From NCBI GenBank assembly GCA_903863905.1, contig CAIPDT010000167.1, forward strand, positions 1 through 35,897: DNA of 35,897 bases. Reading direction: 5' to 3'. Within the stretch, counting starts at the first letter, position 1; each line of letters starts with the position of its first letter. The stretch is from an uncultured Methylococcaceae bacterium. Lineage in GTDB: Bacteria; Pseudomonadota; Gammaproteobacteria; Methylococcales; Methylomonadaceae. A program made the translations under genes and the position numbers. Shown here one piece after another: positions 9,882 through 17,660 of this stretch. Under the pieces are notes generated by a model. That model made no database searches. It had not been told where the DNA came from and was given only the letters and a program-made list of their open reading frames with translations.

Positions 9882-11600
9882 ATGCGCTTAACAGAGTTAG
9901 ATAATCAGGCTTTTTTTGATAAAAATAAAGCGAGAGAAAAGGTGTGTGCTGGTTGGTTAAAGACCTTGGCAAAAACTGTCCGAACACCTTTAATGCTGGC
10001 AGCTAGTGTGGGTGTTTTAAACGGTTGGTTGGTGATAACTCAAGCTGCGTTACTGGCTTATCTGTTACAAGCCATTATTATCGATAAAGTCTCAATAAAC
10101 ACTTTAAGCCCTTACTTAGCGGCCTTAGTTGCGGTATTTATAGCCCGTAGTGTTTGCATATACAGTTATCCCGTATTAGGTTTTGAAGCCGGTGCTACTA
10201 TTAGAACGTCTGTTCGACAACAGTTACTGGATCACTTTTTGGCTTTAGGGCCTTCTGCACTTAAGCACTATCAAAGCGGTGAATTAGCCGCGCTAACTTT
10301 AGAGCAAGTGGATGCTTTAGAGTTTTATTTCTCGCGTTATTTACCTCAACAAATGATCGTCGGTATTTTGCCTCTCAGTATGATAGCGGTGGTGATGCCT
10401 GTTAATTGGGTGGTGGGGGTTATTTTTTTAATCACGGGGCCATTGGTCATTGTCTTTATGGCACTGATTGGGATGGGCGCCGCTTCTGCTAGTCGTAATC
10501 AATTTTTAGCCTTGTCTCGGATGAGTGGTTATTTTCTGGATCGTTTACAAGGCTTAAGTACGCTTAAGTTGTTTGGACAAGCCACGGCAGAATTACACAG
10601 TATCAATGAGAAGGCCGATGGCTTTAGAGAAAAAACGATGACGGTTTTACGCATTGCGTTTTTATCATCGGCGGTGTTGGAGTTTTTTAGTGCGGTAGCG
10701 GTGGCTTTAGTCGCGGTATATGTCGGCCTAGGTTTATTAGGCCAGATTCATTTTGGACCTGCTGAGCATATCACTCTAAAAGAAGCGTTGTTTGTATTGT
10801 TATTAGCGCCTGAATTTTTTATGCCTTTACGACAATTAGCGATTAATTACCATGATCGGGCTGCGGCCTTGGGCGCGAGTGAGGCCATTTTAGCGGTGCT
10901 TGAACAAGTGCCTGGTGTACAGAACAGCAATGAGGTGTCTTCGGGTGAAAGTCCCAATGCTTTGATTGCCTTTCAGCAAGTGAGTAAAAGTTATGCGCAA
11001 CGTACCGTGTTAACTGCGATTAATTTTGAGATTCATCCAGGTGAAAAGGTGGCGTTAATAGGTGAGTCTGGGGCCGGTAAAACTACGTTATTAAATGTGT
11101 TACTCGGCTTTGAGCAACCAACGACGGGAGCCGTTTTTTTGAAAGGGGCGCTGGTGAATAAAACGGATTCTACTCAAGCGATGGCTTGGGTGGGTCAAAG
11201 TGCGGCTATTTTTCATGGCAGTATCAAAGAGAATATTGCCTTAGCTAAACCTGAAGCCAGTGGACAACGTATTAATGAAGCGGCTGTGGCAGCGGGAGTC
11301 ACGGAGTTTACGGCAGCTTTACCATCGGGTTTAGATACTCAAATTGGTGAGCGGGGTTATGGTTTATCAGGTGGGCAAATACAACGCATTGCTTTGGCCA
11401 GAGCATTTTTAAAGAATGCGGACATTGTGGTGTTGGATGAACCGACGGCTAATCTGGATAGTGAGAATAAAACCCGCTTGTTAGCGGTGATTGAGCATTT
11501 GTTTAAGGATAAAACCTTAATTATTGCGACCCATGATCCCATTGTCATTAACCGTCTCACTAGACAATTAGTGCTTAAACAAGGACGGTTAGTAGGATGA
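9882..11600 (+). CDS. cydD: thiol reductant ABC exporter subunit CydD
   Basis: Half of the heterodimeric CydDC ABC transporter, which exports glutathione and cysteine to the periplasm and is required for assembly of cytochrome bd. The protein (572 residues) has an ABC-exporter membrane domain with about six helices (roughly 35-320), then a nucleotide-binding domain with Walker A GESGAGKTT at about 394, signature LSGGQIQR at about 495, and Walker B VVLDEPT from about residue 516. It overlaps cydC by 4 bases (ATGA). The neighbouring cydAB genes run convergently from the other strand, supporting the CydD assignment over other ABC exporters. Confidence 0.94.
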   Translation: MRLTELDNQAFFDKNKAREKVCAGWLKTLAKTVRTPLMLAASVGVLNGWLVITQAALLAYLLQAIIIDKVSINTLSPYLAALVAVFIARSVCIYSYPVLGFEAGATIRTSVRQQLLDHFLALGPSALKHYQSGELAALTLEQVDALEFYFSRYLPQQMIVGILPLSMIAVVMPVNWVVGVIFLITGPLVIVFMALIGMGAASASRNQFLALSRMSGYFLDRLQGLSTLKLFGQATAELHSINEKADGFREKTMTVLRIAFLSSAVLEFFSAVAVALVAVYVGLGLLGQIHFGPAEHITLKEALFVLLLAPEFFMPLRQLAINYHDRAAALGASEAILAVLEQVPGVQNSNEVSSGESPNALIAFQQVSKSYAQRTVLTAINFEIHPGEKVALIGESGAGKTTLLNVLLGFEQPTTGAVFLKGALVNKTDSTQAMAWVGQSAAIFHGSIKENIALAKPEASGQRINEAAVAAGVTEFTAALPSGLDTQIGERGYGLSGGQIQRIALARAFLKNADIVVLDEPTANLDSENKTRLLAVIEHLFKDKTLIIATHDPIVINRLTRQLVLKQGRLVG

Positions 11601-13279
11601 AAGACGGCTGGTTTTTTTTAAAGTTATTTAAACCTTACAGTGCTTGGTTGCTGGGCGGTATTGTCTTGTCATTAATCACCAGTTTAGCCGCGATTGTGTT
11701 GCTGACTTTATCCGGTTGGTTTATTAGCGCGTCAGCCCTAGCGGGCTTGATGGTGGTGGATGGCCAAGTCTTAGCGTTTAATTTTATGTTACCGGCGGCA
11801 CAAATTCGTGCCTTGGCAATTACGCGCACGTTAGGTCGTTATGGCGAGCGTTTAGTGACTCATGAGGCCACTTTTCGAGTACTTGCAGAGCTGCGCAGTT
11901 GGTTTTTTCAACACTTGATTCCATTAGTGCCGGGACGGTTAGCGTTGCTTCGTAGTGGTGATTTATTGTCTCGGATGACAGCCGATATTGATGCGTTGGA
12001 TGCCTTGTATTTGCGTTTAGTGGCGCCTCTTACCGTGGCTATTATTGGTGGCGTTGCAGTGACGGTGTTTTTGGCTGCGTATGCGCCGGTGATTAGTTTA
12101 ACCAACGGTTTGTTTTTGTTAGCGGCAGGTGTTGTGGTGCCGTGGCTTTTTAATCGTTTAGGTCGAGAGGGTGCAGAACGTATTACGGTGTTAATGGCCA
12201 ATTATAGAATTCGTCAAGTGGATACCTTACAAGGGTTGGCTGATTTAATGGCGAATCAAGCCTACGAACGTTTCAGTGCCTTCTTAAGTCGATTTTCTGA
12301 GCGGCTGATTCATACCCAACGGCAAAATAATCGCTTAACCGCTATTTCTTCTGCGCTTACTTTTTTGCTGGCGCAGTTAAGTGTCTTAGTGGCGCTGGTA
12401 TTGGCGGCGGTTTTATTTGCTAATGGAGTTTTAGCGGGGCCAGAGGTAGCCTTGGTGGTATTTTGCGTATTAGTAGCATTTGAATTAGTCACGCCTTTGG
12501 CAATGGCGATGCAGATGTTAGCCAAAACCTTAACCGCAGCAGGGCGTATTAGACAGGTGGCTGAAATGACGCCAACCATACAACAACCGGTGCAAGCACT
12601 CTCGTTACCTGAGGAGTTTGCTTTACAAGTCTCTGGTGTTAGTTTTCGCTATTCTGAGCAACAAGATTGGGTGTTAAAAGATCTTAATTTAATGATTCCA
12701 CAAGGATATAAAATTGCGATTGTAGGCGCCAGTGGTTCGGGTAAAACGACTTTACTACACTTATTAATGCGTTATTATGATCCTGAATTAGGGCAGGTCT
12801 CTTTAGGTGGACAGTCTTTAATAAGCGTGGGGTCTGACCCCTTGATGAGCTGTTTTGGGGTATTATCACAACGCACGCAATTGTTTGCGGCTAGTATTAA
12901 AGAGAATTTGTTATTAGCTAAACCCACCGCGACGGACTTAGAACTGGCGGCGGCTATTAAAGCGACGGGACTGGAAAAATTTATCAGTTATTTACCCGAA
13001 GGGTTAGAGACGTGGGTGGGGGAGAGCGGCGTTAAAGTATCGGGCGGCGAAGCGAGGCGGATTGCCTTAGCGCGGTTGTATCTTAAAGATGCACCGATAC
13101 TGATTTTAGATGAACCTACCGAAGGCCTAGATGCCGAGACAGAACGGGATGTGTTGCAGGCTTTAAGCCATTTTTCAGTTCATAAAACCGTGATTATGGT
13201 CACGCATCGTGAAGCGGGTTTAGGTTGGGTTGATGAAGTGTATAGAATGGAGGGGGGCGTGTTAAGTCATTCTAGGTAG
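11597..13279 (+). CDS. cydC: thiol reductant ABC exporter subunit CydC
   Basis: The second half of the CydDC exporter (560 residues). The membrane domain occupies about residues 10-310. The nucleotide-binding domain shows Walker A GASGSGKTT at about 377, the signature VSGGEARR at about 481 and Walker B ILILDEPT from about residue 501. The family-typical N-terminus (LLTLSGWFISASALAG) distinguishes CydC from CydD. It is translationally coupled to cydD through an ATGA overlap. A lipoprotein gene follows on the same strand. Confidence 0.94.
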   Translation: MKDGWFFLKLFKPYSAWLLGGIVLSLITSLAAIVLLTLSGWFISASALAGLMVVDGQVLAFNFMLPAAQIRALAITRTLGRYGERLVTHEATFRVLAELRSWFFQHLIPLVPGRLALLRSGDLLSRMTADIDALDALYLRLVAPLTVAIIGGVAVTVFLAAYAPVISLTNGLFLLAAGVVVPWLFNRLGREGAERITVLMANYRIRQVDTLQGLADLMANQAYERFSAFLSRFSERLIHTQRQNNRLTAISSALTFLLAQLSVLVALVLAAVLFANGVLAGPEVALVVFCVLVAFELVTPLAMAMQMLAKTLTAAGRIRQVAEMTPTIQQPVQALSLPEEFALQVSGVSFRYSEQQDWVLKDLNLMIPQGYKIAIVGASGSGKTTLLHLLMRYYDPELGQVSLGGQSLISVGSDPLMSCFGVLSQRTQLFAASIKENLLLAKPTATDLELAAAIKATGLEKFISYLPEGLETWVGESGVKVSGGEARRIALARLYLKDAPILILDEPTEGLDAETERDVLQALSHFSVHKTVIMVTHREAGLGWVDEVYRMEGGVLSHSR

Positions 13280-13343
13280 GGTGCTAAGCATGAGGGTAAA
13301 CAAGGATAGGATTTTTAAAATAATAAAAAGTGAGGAGGTGTTT

Positions 13344-13868
13344 GTGAAGCGAAATTTAATCAGTTCATTAATCGGTGTAGTCTTAGGAAGTTTGCTTTTG
13401 AGTGGCTGTGATGATAGTCAAAAGAGTGCTAAAGTGTTTCCTACGGTCGTTAGAAAATATACTCAGAACACTGCTATAGAAGGGATAGTGAGTAATAACA
13501 AAGGCGTGCTTAAAACGGGTCATGTTAAGGTGATATCTACAAGTGATCAGTTAATCACTCAAGCCAATTTAGACAGTGGTCATTATAAGGTAGAGATTCC
13601 TGCTAACACGGATTTGCCCATTTTAATAATCGCCATAGCAGAGGGAGAAACTGAGAAGTTGTCAGTGGCGGTAGTGGATGACAGTATCAAACAGTATCAG
13701 ATTAATCCAACTACAACAGCCATTGCTAAAGCGGCTAAAGCCATGGGGGGTTATACGCGAGCTAATTTAGTGAGGGCGGCAGAAGAAACGGTGCATATTC
13801 CTGATGCTAATAAAACCACAACAGGTTGGCGAGGTGATCCAACCACACAATACGGTGGTTGGCATTAG
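13344..13868 (+). CDS. putative lipoprotein with carboxypeptidase-regulatory-like (Ig-fold) region
   Basis: I start this gene at the GTG at 13344, because GAGGAGGTG lies just upstream and the resulting N-terminus is a clean lipoprotein signal: basic MKRN, a hydrophobic stretch, and lipobox LSGC with the lipidated cysteine at residue 22. A longer reading from 13281 would bury that signal behind 21 charged residues. Asp follows the cysteine, which in enterics can mean retention in the inner membrane. Residues about 47-100 (IEGIVSNNKGVLKTG..GHYKVEIP) resemble the beta-sandwich of carboxypeptidase-regulatory-like domains. Function is unknown. It sits directly after cydDC, so a link to cytochrome bd assembly is possible but not shown. 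Confidence 0.8.
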   Translation: MKRNLISSLIGVVLGSLLLSGCDDSQKSAKVFPTVVRKYTQNTAIEGIVSNNKGVLKTGHVKVISTSDQLITQANLDSGHYKVEIPANTDLPILIIAIAEGETEKLSVAVVDDSIKQYQINPTTTAIAKAAKAMGGYTRANLVRAAEETVHIPDANKTTTGWRGDPTTQYGGWH

Positions 13869-13873
13869 GCTAA

Positions 13874-14323
13874 TTACTTTTTTCGATCATATTCATTATC
13901 TTCTGGGCAGCCGAAATGTTTGCCAGTGTAAGATAAGATTAAAATGGCAACACTGAGTAGAGCAATTGCAACCGTTATACTCAGCAATAAGTAAAGATGA
14001 AAGCTGTCGGCTACTTTCTGTACATCAATCACTAAATGCCTTGATAAAGCGGTAATGGCAATATAGATTAAGAATTGTACAGGTAGCCGACGGGTTTTAA
14101 AGTAGGTGCCCACCATGGCTCCTAATTCTAGATAAATAAAGAGTAATAAGATTTCTTCTAAATCCGCATGGCCCGATTTCATCATTTCAATATAGTCGTG
14201 AATAGCTGACCAAACAATGGTTGCACCAATGCCAAATAATGCGAGGTAATGAAAACTATCGACTAGGATATCGCCGATCTTATGAATGTAGGCTGTTTTA
14301 TTATTCATGGGGGGGCTAAGCAT
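13874..14323 (-). CDS. psiE: PsiE-like membrane protein
   Basis: A 149-residue protein with four predicted membrane helices (about residues 20-45, 58-75, 82-100 and 108-133) and the PsiE-family look (YLELGAMVGTYFKTRRLPVQFLIYIAITALSRHL). PsiE was named for phosphate-starvation induction in E. coli; its biochemical role is unknown. An alternative start 5 codons later (14308) is equally possible, since neither ATG has a clear ribosome site. It follows the cydX-GGDEF gene on the same strand after a 59-base gap containing a strong hairpin, and converges on the lipoprotein gene with 5 bases between stops. Confidence 0.82.
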   Translation of the reverse strand: MLSPPMNNKTAYIHKIGDILVDSFHYLALFGIGATIVWSAIHDYIEMMKSGHADLEEILLLFIYLELGAMVGTYFKTRRLPVQFLIYIAITALSRHLVIDVQKVADSFHLYLLLSITVAIALLSVAILILSYTGKHFGCPEDNEYDRKK

Positions 14324-14382: not shown

Positions 14383-14952
14383 TTAAGTGCGTCTATTCGC
14401 TGTTGCTACGCTGATTAATTGATTAACATCGAGTGCCGAGGTCGCTAACACGGGGGTGCTGTTAGAAAATTCGGCAACACCGGTTGATAATTCTACAATT
14501 AAACCCTGCGGGGCATGAACTCGTTCAGCAATGATGTTTTTAATGCGTTGACCGACTTCTTCTGCTTTGTAGGAAGGTGATCCTGGCATAGCAATCAGAA
14601 ATTCATCGTCGTGCATTCTAGCGGCAATATCAACTCCCGCTCTAATTTCATCCTTAAAGCATTGTGCAGTCCCACGTAAAATGCTGTCCATTTCGTGCGT
14701 GTCTATATTATGGCGAGACTTAAAGTCACTTAAATTTAATAGCAAAATAGAAAAGGGAAAGCCATTGCGCTTAGAGTTTTCAACTTTTTCTTTTAAGCGA
14801 CCTAGCATAGTCTCTTTTGTCATTAAATGCGTGAGCGGGTCTAAAGCGATATGCTCTTTATCCCACGCTTCTTGTGCTTCTAATCTAAGCACATTGATAA
14901 TGCCTAATGAACAGGCGAGTAATAAACCCAGTATCCAAGTAAAGTACCACAT
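14383..14952 (-). CDS. CydX (bd oxidase small subunit) fused to a degenerate GGDEF domain
   Basis: Residues 1-30 are a recognisable CydX: MWYFTWILGLLLACSLG matches E. coli CydX closely, keeping W6 and E25, and forming one membrane helix. After a linker of about 10 residues a GGDEF domain begins at DPLTHL (about 38) and runs to the end (189). The GGDEF motif reads HDDEF (114-118). The metal-binding aspartate of the canonical DIDxFK loop is N73 and the second is S75. The GHxxGD stretch is altered and one residue short. The RxxD inhibitory site has Ala at the Arg position (A105, with R104 shifted by one). Cyclase activity is therefore doubtful. The gene starts 9 bases after cydB with TAGGAG upstream of its ATG, exactly where cydX normally sits. 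Confidence 0.9.
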   Translation of the reverse strand: MWYFTWILGLLLACSLGIINVLRLEAQEAWDKEHIALDPLTHLMTKETMLGRLKEKVENSKRNGFPFSILLLNLSDFKSRHNIDTHEMDSILRGTAQCFKDEIRAGVDIAARMHDDEFLIAMPGSPSYKAEEVGQRIKNIIAERVHAPQGLIVELSTGVAEFSNSTPVLATSALDVNQLISVATANRRT

Positions 14953-14961
14953 AGTCGGCTC

Positions 14962-16101
14962 CTAATAAGCGGTATGATCGTTTTTGTGAATATGATCGAG
15001 TGTGATTTTTCCGCGTAACACTCTAAAAGCCCACGTGGTATAAGTCAGGACAATCGGTAAAAAGATCAAGGTGACCCATAGCATGATTTTTAAAGTAGCT
15101 AAGCTAGAGCTTGCATCCCATACCGTTAAAGAGCTATTAAGCGCTGAACTTGAGGGAATTAAGAACGGAAACATGGAAACCCCGGCTGTTACAATAATAG
15201 CCGCTAAGGTTAAGGAACTGCTGATAAAGGCGAGTCCAGGTTTATCAAGTTTAGATAATAATAACGTGAGGGTGCCCATTACAAAGGCTGACATTGGAAT
15301 AAGCCATAAGATAGGGTAATGGCTATAATTAGCGAGCCATAAGCCGGGCGCTTTGATGACGGTTTTTGCTAAAGGATCCGAATATGCATTAGGTGAAATA
15401 GTACTGCTAATTTGATAACCATCAATATTGGCTATCCAAATACCCGCTAATGCAAACACCACTAAGGTGAGTAAACTAAACACGGTGACGACCGTTTTAC
15501 AACGTTGGTTAATGTCACCTTCGGTTTTGATTTGTAAATAAACCCCACCGTGCATTAGAATCATGCTTAAGCTAACTACACCGGCGGTTATTGCAAACGG
15601 ATTTAACAACGCCCAGAATGAACCGGTATAGAAACTGCGCATATCGGTATCAAAATGAAAAGGCACACCTTCTAATAAATTACCAAAGGCAACGCCAAAG
15701 ATTAAGGCAGGCACTAAACCACCAATACATAAAGCGATATCCCAGTTGCTACGCCATTTTTTAGAAGGCAGTTTACTTCGATAATCAAAGCCTAAAGGTC
15801 TTAAAAATAAAGCAAACAAAGTGAGTAATAAGGCGAAGTATAAGCCTGAAAAAGCCACTGAATAAGCCATAGGCCAAGCGGCAAAGAGAGCGCCACCGGC
15901 GGTTACAAACCACACTTGATTGCCTTCCCAAGTAGCCCCAACGCTGTTAATAATGACGCGGCGTTCTGTATCATTTTTACCTAAAAAGGGTAATAGCGTG
16001 GCTACACCTAAATCAAAACCACCCGTGACGGCAAAGCCAATTAAAAGTGCGCCTAAGAGGGCCCACCAAATAAGGCGCATCGTTTCATAATCCAAAATCA
16101 T
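14962..16101 (-). CDS. cydB: cytochrome bd ubiquinol oxidase subunit II
   Basis: The second large membrane subunit of cytochrome bd, which supports CydA structurally and stabilises the haem arrangement. It has 379 residues, the same as E. coli CydB, begins [20 protein letters not shown], and shows the family segments [12 protein letters not shown] and [20 protein letters not shown], with about eight membrane helices. It starts in an ATGA overlap with cydA and is followed 9 bases later by the cydX fusion gene. Confidence 0.96.
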
Positions 16102-17660
16102 AATGAAGCTCCTGAAGCAATTTCAAAATGGTAGCGACCTTTATGGAGGCTACTAGGGCCTAGTTTAATGAACTTAAGCATTAAGAACATTTCGATAACT
16201 AAAAAGACGGTATATAAACAGATATAACCGGCTAAACTGAGATATAAATCTAATTCTGTTAAAGACGAGACACTTAAAAAAGTGGGTAATATTTCTGCGA
16301 TGGTCCACGGTTGTCTACCAAATTCAGCGACAAACCAACCTGCTTCACAGGCAATCCACGGTAAGGGCATCATGTATAAACTGGCTTTTAATAACCAGTT
16401 TTGTCGGCATTTTCTAATAGAGCTGGCAATCACGGCTAATACAAAAATAGCTAACATGGCAAAGCCACACGCAACCATGACTCTAAAGGTCCAGAATAAA
16501 GGTACGACGCGAGGAATTGAATATTTTGTCGCTAAGTCAATTTGTTCATCAGTCGCGTCTACGACTTTATCGGTATAACGTTTTAATAATAAGCCATAAC
16601 CTAAATCGGCTTTGTTAAGATTAAATGCGGCCACGGTGGTTTCATCACGTTGTCCGGCGCGTAAGGTTTGTAAACTGCTATAGGCTTTCATGCCATTACG
16701 AACCCGTTGGCGATTTTTTTCTAAAATTTCTGTTAAGCCGGTGATGGGGGTATCAATAGAACGTGTACCAATTAAACCTAATACCCATGGAATTTTTACA
16801 GCATAGCGTGTTTCCATTGCGTCCTGATCAGGAATGCCGATAGCGGTAAAGGAGGCAGGGGCCTCTTCGGTATGCCATTCGGCTTCGATAGCAGCGAGTT
16901 TGGCTTTTTGAACTTCACCATCCGTGTATCCACTTTCATCACCTAAGACAATAACGGATAAAATAGCAGCTAAGCCAAAACCGGCGGCAATGGTATACGA
17001 GCGTTGCGCAAAAGCCGCGTCACGACCTTTTAGCATATAAAAAGCACTAACGCCTAAAACGAAAGCGGAGGCCGTGGTATAACCAGCAGCTACGGTGTGG
17101 ACAAATTTAACTTGTGCGGCCGGATTAAACAGTAAAGAACCAAAGCTGGAGAGTTCCATACGCATGGTTTCATAATTAAAATCGGCGCCGACTGGATTTT
17201 GCATCCAACCATTGGCGACCAAGATCCATAAAGCCGATAAGTTAGTGCCTAAAGCAACTAACCAAGTGACGAGTAAGTGTTGGCCTTTACCTAACTTATC
17301 CCAACCAAAGAAAAACAAGCCGACAAAGGTTGCTTCAAGAAAAAAGGCCATTAAACCTTCAATGGCCAAGGGGGCGCCAAAAATATCGCCTACGTAATGT
17401 GAGAAATAAGACCAGTTCATCCCAAATTGAAACTCCATCGTTAGGCCGGTAGTGACGCCTAAGGCAAAGTTTATTCCGAAGAGTTTCCCCCAGAACTGGG
17501 TCATATCTTTATAAATTTCTTTACCCGTCATGACATAGGTAGACTCCATGATGGCGAGTAAAAAAGATAGACCGAGGGTAAGAGGTACAAATAAGAAGTG
17601 ATATAACGAGGTTGCTGCAAACTGCCAGCGGGATAAATCAACTATAGATTCTGAAATCAT
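16098..17660 (-). CDS. cydA: cytochrome bd ubiquinol oxidase subunit I (long Q-loop type)
   Basis: The catalytic subunit carrying haems b558, b595 and d; it oxidises quinol and reduces O2 to water without pumping protons. The length (520; E. coli 522) and the long hydrophilic insertion around residues 255-380 place it in the long-Q-loop class. The N-terminal haem ligand is seen in [12 protein letters not shown] (H21). The proton-channel glutamates lie in [15 protein letters not shown], and the [18 protein letters not shown] and [12 protein letters not shown] segments are typical. A GAGGAAC ribosome site precedes the ATG, with a small hairpin immediately upstream of it. Confidence 0.97.

Follow-up and report, generated by a model that had tools for sequence, protein, structure and literature searches.

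A cytochrome bd oxidase small subunit fused to a degenerate GGDEF domain in Methylococcales

Introduction

Why would the small subunit of a respiratory oxidase end in a domain of the diguanylate cyclase type? The question arises from one reading frame in the window, by which we mean the whole stretch of 35,897 nucleotides analysed here. An earlier note, written from the letters alone, had described the frame as a CydX protein that runs into a degenerate GGDEF domain, and had taken the product for a tethered sensor or pseudo-cyclase carried by the cytochrome bd oxidase. Here, we ask whether the fusion is real, how widely it occurs, and what its second domain may do for the oxidase.

Results

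The fusion gene occupies positions 14383..14952 of the minus strand, with its ATG at 14952 and its stop codon at 14385-14383. Translation of the frame confirmed the 189 residues and the distance of 9 bases from cydB reported before; the strand had been absent from the earlier note. Of 68 fused loci, encoding 49 distinct proteins, 67 have 8-15 bases between cydB and the fusion gene; in the remaining one the spacer measures 65 bases. Upstream lie cydB (14962..16101, minus strand; 379 aa), recognized by PF02322 and TIGR00203, and cydA (16098..17660, minus strand; 520 aa). The CydA protein is of the E. coli type with a long Q-loop. It aligned along the full length of E. coli CydA (6rko_A, E 4.1e-240), and D239, Y243, and R298 of the E. 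coli enzyme, with positions counted on the alignment, are conserved in it. The CydX part of the fusion, delimited by Pfam, the structural model, and the alignment with E. coli CydX (6rko_X, E 7.7e-9), comprises residues 1-33 (14854..14952, minus strand). Residues 1-27 matched PF08173 (YbgT_YccB) with 54.8 bits (E 9.7e-15), the curated cut-off being 26.2. The degenerate GGDEF domain extends over approximately residues 37-165 (14458..14844, minus strand), and PF00990 matched residues 36-164 with 59.1 bits (E 5.8e-16; curated cut-off 23.8). Among the NCBIfam models, cyd_oper_ybgT (TIGR02106) scored 50 bits against a cut-off of 31.6, and the GGDEF model TIGR00254 was likewise over its cut-off. With both parts above the cut-offs of both collections, the claim of an intact CydX in frame with a GGDEF domain was upheld. 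Calling the domain full-length was slightly generous: the domain was matched, but only profile positions 2-135 of 161 were covered, and the end of the domain has therefore diverged. The 189 residues lie outside the ~30-50 typical of CydX, length being no part of the CydX profile.

The next gene downstream of the fusion encodes a membrane protein of the PsiE family (13874..14323, minus strand; Pfam). A PsiE gene lies close to the fusion in 16 of 42 loci of relatives (L038-L079, several of them short), for example in L038, L039, and L044. Inspection by eye also revealed a PsiE-like frame after a plain cydX (G003, locus L149). On the plus strand, two adjacent ABC exporter genes (9882-13279), CydD/CydC-like as judged by eye and by their place, converge on the operon formed by cydAB and the fusion gene; similar genes are found near 7 of the 42 relatives' loci. 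Between the exporter and PsiE genes there is a small open reading frame (13281-13868, plus strand) with a start that by eye resembles that of a lipoprotein (LLLSGC).

Motifs were counted in 61 distinct complete fusions, those cut by a contig end being left out, and in a reference set of 11 ordinary GGDEF domains from the genome of the window and from related genomes. Residue roles were assumed to follow PleD, whose D327 we take to be the first metal Asp. This residue is absent from all fusions (0/61; S in 49 and N in 12) and present in all ordinary domains (11/11). The GG of the GG[DE]EF motif is distributed in the same manner (0/61 versus 11/11), and the third position of the motif holds D or E in 19/61 fusions versus 11/11 ordinary domains. 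A C-terminal pattern of the simple AK..GRN type, which is presumably the usual C-terminal motif of GGDEF proteins, was detected in 8/11 ordinary proteins and in 0/61 fusions. The Asp and Thr of the DxLT motif at the domain start (D38 and T41) are kept in 61/61 fusions and 11/11 ordinary domains, and the residue preceding the GGDEF motif is Arg in 59/61 fusions and Lys in 2. In the window, the start of the domain reads DPLT, HDDEF stands in the place of GGDEF, and N73 replaces the metal Asp; W6, E25, N73, and H114-D115-D116-E117-F118 were all found as the earlier note had them. Since neither the metal Asp nor the GG was found in any of the 61 fusions, the domain is, by its motifs, the pseudo-cyclase that had been supposed.

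The I-site required a correction. The RxxD had been considered lost, and strictly it is in the window (A105xxD108), but R104 and D108 are each invariant (61/61) and G106 occurs in 58/61 fusions. The region reads RxGxD in 58/61, RLPHD in two, and RREID in one, the deep-branch member L033, which is the only fusion with a strict RxxD (1/61). The corresponding R and D are present in 10/11 and 11/11 ordinary domains. RxGxD may be read as the Arg and Asp of the I-site kept with one residue inserted; a different Arg would be compatible with the same alignment. D108 and R112 are conserved in ordinary domains too. The positions of the guanine-contacting Asn and Asp, which we assigned on the assumption that they are those of PleD, hold N in 36/61 and D in 49/61 fusions. 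In the CydX part, Met1, Trp2, and Glu25 are each present in 61/61 fusions. Residue 23 is Arg in 56/61 fusions and Trp in 5/61, and by eye mostly Trp in the plain CydX proteins of loci L081-L117; this residue, charged in most fusions, lies where the membrane helix reaches the cytoplasm.

An AlphaFold2 monomer model was obtained from an alignment of 44 fusions (mean pLDDT 79.1, pTM 0.68). It predicts a helix at residues 2-33 followed by alternating strands and helices in the arrangement of a GGDEF fold. Confidence was lowest in residues 21-40 (pLDDT 63-64), which include the junction, and in residues 161-170 (pLDDT 63). A Foldseek comparison with the PDB returned an Idiomarina phytochrome cyclase, SiaD, the GCN4-WspR chimera 3i5c, WspR, PleD, and DosC. 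When the sequence profile of the fusions was compared with the PDB, the best GGDEF chain had an E value of 2e-16 and E. coli CydX (6rko_X) one of 1.2e-10.

The earlier note had proposed a search for other CydX-GGDEF fusions beside cydAB. A profile built from 44 fusions was used to search 311 Methylococcales genomes, and 69 of them had matches at E<=1e-30. In 67 genomes the match spans position 1 to at least 163, and these were counted as full-length; the two others are partial (G295 and G300). Such fusions are thus found in 67/311 Methylococcales genomes, which represent 14 genera and two families. Genomes of the same genus carry the fusion at 56-81% identity to the window protein. Nearly all of the named records (L038-L080) bear the label Methylococcales, Methylococcaceae, Methylobacter, or Methylomonas, and both Methylobacter tundripaludum SV96 and OWC-G53F carry the fusion, as do a one-contig genome (G019) and a four-contig genome (G031). 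This recurrence in same-genus genomes, in named records, and across the order speaks against the frameshift or misjoining that had been considered as a possible source of the frame, and an assembly artefact was ruled out on these grounds. Two full-length copies of the fusion are present in G019 (contig C1). A 3-kb contig (L075, CAIJNA010000055.1) from a draft labelled Epsilonproteobacteria has a Methylococcales-type fusion and is probably a binning error.

PF08173 matches were found in at least 194/311 Methylococcales genomes (at least 190 over the cut-off), so plain CydX is common in this order too. Translation of 70 Methylococcales loci gave 22 fused and 48 plain (G027 counted twice). Of the 35 genomes in the genus of the window, its own included, 24 are fused and four read plain (G001, G003, G010, and G027); G023 has a weak PF08173 match, and six have none among the matches listed. 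The window's own genome has one PF08173 match. Among the matches listed for the 67 fused genomes, many of them drafts, no second or free CydX was found; each has one match, except G019 with two, both of them fused. Beyond the order, PF08173 was matched in 60/369 genomes of the class and 98/398 of the phylum, two samples (not a census) that overlap and both include the genome of the window. We fetched all 6 other class matches with an open frame of >=100 aa and ten further phylum matches with a frame of >=108 aa, and CydX proper has 36-56 residues in 16/16. Such frames (982 aa in G481, for example) owe their extra length to sequence ahead of the CydX start and were rejected as further fusions; long frames in some non-fused Methylococcales loci are the same artefact. 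The other frames are too short to hold a GGDEF domain, and the window genome is therefore the only one with a fusion among the CydX-bearing genomes of the class (60) and phylum (98) samples.

A cydX gene followed by a separate GGDEF gene, the other finding that the earlier note thought would undo its claim, was not seen in any of 101 plain-CydX loci (G027 counted twice) searched with two GGDEF profiles, six of which, with less than 700 bases counted from the start of cydX, are too short to reveal a following gene. The sole GGDEF match in these loci lies near the far end of L098, ~2.9 kb before cydX. Split genes were consequently rejected as the ancestral state. In a tree of 151 CydB rows, of which 58 are fused and 93 were counted plain, all 58 fused rows fall in a clade of 60 rows with a support of 99, the method being a quick one without bootstrap. 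Two rows complete the clade: L080, a disrupted fusion that entered the count as plain, and L099, a plain locus from a Thiotrichaceae with an uncertain position. The tree covers loci with a cydB of at least 330 aa and a recognisable CydX, identical sequences being omitted, and as counted it requires at least three label changes. A single gain of the fusion is favoured, not proven. The plain Methylococcales rows, L080 apart, lie outside the fused clade and thus represent other cydAB lineages.

The median ratio of segment dN to gene dS was 0.015 for residues 1-33, 0.168 for residues 34-165 (ratio of sums 0.162), and 0.333 for residues 166-189. These values come from 192 non-independent pairs of 55 sequences with a whole-gene dS of 0.05-1.2, six later fusions being left out. 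The GGDEF domain is under purifying selection (dN/dS ~0.16) and is kept as a protein.

Two irregular copies were observed. In one (L205, on the same contig as L080; G295), the fusion has an internal deletion and a shifted frame that leaves a 75-aa open reading frame; this is either genuine decay or an error of the draft assembly. In the other (L204; G300), a cydB-like stretch directly precedes a GGDEF fragment of the fusion family, which looks like a deletion or a misassembly in a draft genome.

Discussion

CydX-GGDEF is a real, conserved, in-frame fusion, and the findings suggest that respiration is wired to a regulatory module in the methane-eating bacteria that carry it. With no free CydX among the matches listed for the fused genomes, the domain seems to belong to the enzyme permanently, provided that it is not cleaved from it.

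Published work on E. coli supplies a geometry for the domain. CydX is described as contacting helices 1, 5, and 6 of CydA, with its hydrophilic C-terminal part in the cytoplasm and Glu25 acting as a float (PMC6853902); an earlier prediction of a periplasmic C-terminus is quoted in PMC5322542. We prefer the cytoplasmic location because the cryo-EM paper states it and a domain of the nucleotide-binding type suits the cytoplasm. A further article (PMC13189123) reports an E. coli bd-I dimer built around a CydX-CydX contact with a leucine zipper, a higher activity of the dimer than of the monomer, and a contact in the dimer between Trp2 of CydX and Asp239 of the CydA Q-loop. Both partners of this contact are present in the window proteins, and the two CydX residues that take part in the E. 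coli dimer contact, Met1 and Trp2, are invariant among the fusions (61/61).

Because E. coli bd-I forms its dimer through CydX and is more active in that state, we hypothesized, with a probability of roughly 40%, that a pair of pseudo-GGDEF domains serves as a clamp or switch for the bd oxidase at the CydX dimer interface. The observed part of the argument consists of the fusion, its conservation, its clade, the catalytic loss, the selection on the domain, and the lack of a second CydX; the fold is a prediction. The fusion is the sole CydX found for a bd quinol oxidase of the E. coli type (long Q-loop), with a catalytically dead GGDEF domain at the cytoplasmic end. The C-terminal location, the CydX dimer, and its activity are taken from the E. 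coli literature, and the dimer arrangement and its control in the present oxidase are what we infer from it. If CydX pairs with CydX at the interface as in E. coli, the two fused helices would bring two pseudo-GGDEF domains together just below the membrane. Ordinary diguanylate cyclases, with their helical stalk, and the engineered GCN4-WspR chimera would offer parallels to this arrangement. The paired domains might then establish the dimeric state of the oxidase, which is the more active one, or stabilise it, be it constitutively or under the influence of a ligand or partner. This hypothesis is more specific than the tethered sensor of the earlier note. Against a clamp count the other organisms whose CydX does without the domain, including 48/70 Methylococcales loci, and the facts that all dimer data concern E. 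coli bd-I and that our model is of a monomer with low confidence at the junction. A narrower version, in which a second messenger or guanine nucleotide switches the dimer state and turnover of the oxidase through the pseudo-GGDEF pair in the CydX interface, is possible but rather unlikely. If true, it would amount to direct second-messenger control of a respiratory enzyme.

The domain could alternatively be a receptor of c-di-GMP or another guanine nucleotide, perhaps through the modified I-site RxGxD, that alters the activity of the oxidase. We consider this doubtful, although R104, D108, and most G106 residues persist where the catalytic residues are lost and the guanine-contact positions are partly kept. 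The window's own genome has 11 GGDEF matches (the fusion and 10 others), one PilZ match, and one heme-copper oxidase match, and parts for c-di-GMP signalling therefore exist there; degenerate GGDEF receptors such as PopA and PelD are described in PMC3974145. The near absence of a strict RxxD and the lack of metal Asp and GG in all fusions argue in the opposite direction, and a structural role is possible for R104 and D108; conservation of D108, and of R112, extends to ordinary domains. It is also conceivable, if tentatively so, that the domain docks onto a partner protein (a GGDEF/EAL enzyme, a landmark protein, or another respiratory complex) and thereby places the oxidase or the partner. An inactive GGDEF domain acts in this manner in PdeB, by contact with HubP (PMC9061725). 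In the helix at residues 46-63, E55 (46/49), K56 (47/49), and N59 (46/49 distinct fusion proteins) are conserved, and by eye they are not in the 11 ordinary domains aligned alongside. Such family-specific residues could equally serve an external partner, a point against the clamp or switch. Docking is weakened by the lack of a constant partner gene, neither PsiE nor cydD/cydC being a regular neighbour in L038-L079, among which many loci are too short.

That the domain is a neutral passenger, a misassembly, or a missed frameshift is very improbable and refuted in the main: disrupted copies in two draft genomes (L205 and L204) speak for it, and against it stand the 67 fused genomes, including the one-contig, four-contig, and named M. 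tundripaludum ones, purifying selection with no internal stop, and the absence of a split form in the 101 plain loci, six of them short. A working diguanylate cyclase that uses the oxidase as an oxygen or redox sensor can claim the predicted fold, the DxLT motif, and PDB chains named 'Ammonium transporter' with a matching GGDEF domain (8qj3, 8qpf), and was rejected as scarcely credible on the motif data (metal Asp, GG, and C-terminal pattern each 0/61).

The domain would lie where the E. coli work locates the activity-raising dimer interface, which makes the monomer-dimer balance of a bd oxidase directly testable as a cellular control point. The fusion is relevant, too, to the way in which methane-oxidising bacteria cope with low oxygen. 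In agreement with the earlier note, which knew of no described system of this kind, no description of CydX-GGDEF was found among the papers listed from the open-licence literature, nor any case there of a terminal oxidase in which a subunit carries a signalling domain of its own; the two domains may already stand side by side in database entries. In the passages concerned, PMC4465626 uses the words CydX and GGDEF in unrelated places; for M. tundripaludum SV96, two bd oxidases and 20 GGDEF proteins are given in PMC6956133, and for wetland Methylobacter, cyd genes are reported in PMC6222125, the last two without mention of the fusion.

Among known systems, E. coli CydX (YbgT, 6rko chain X) is like the fusion in its N-terminal 29 residues, which align without gaps, in its place after cydB, and in its partner, a CydA with a long Q-loop. 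The E. coli protein, of 37 residues in all, ends in a short hydrophilic tail, in place of which the fusion has ~155 residues with a predicted GGDEF fold. C-terminal regions of CydX proteins are reported to reach 44 residues by Allen et al. 2014 (PMC4325964), whose main text contains none of the words diguanylate, fused, and fusions. The cyclases SiaD, WspR, PleD, and DosC share with the fusion the predicted fold, the DxLT motif with which the domain starts, and the Arg preceding the GGDEF motif, and SiaD gave its best NCBIfam score, far under the cut-off (62.9 versus 290 bits). Unlike them, the fusion is without metal Asp, GG, and C-terminal pattern, and has the standard I-site in 1/61.

For the ammonium transporter-GGDEF proteins, it has been proposed that the transporter drives an active cyclase. 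These proteins (8qj3, 8qpf) resemble the fusion as membrane proteins with a C-terminal GGDEF domain; the domain of the fusion differs in being dead by motif, with a terminal oxidase as its partner. PopA and PelD (PMC3974145) and the PdeB GGDEF domain that contacts HubP (PMC9061725) are described as dead cyclase domains kept by selection, as is the case here, but they belong to signalling or exopolysaccharide proteins, whereas the fusion is a subunit of a respiratory oxidase with RxxD altered in 60/61. Finally, the chimaeric CydA proteins of delta-proteobacteria, described as fused to c-type cytochromes (PMC5322542), also join a bd-type subunit to another domain. In that case there is no cydB and the added domain is a redox partner, while here an ordinary cydAB is accompanied by a signalling-type domain on CydX.
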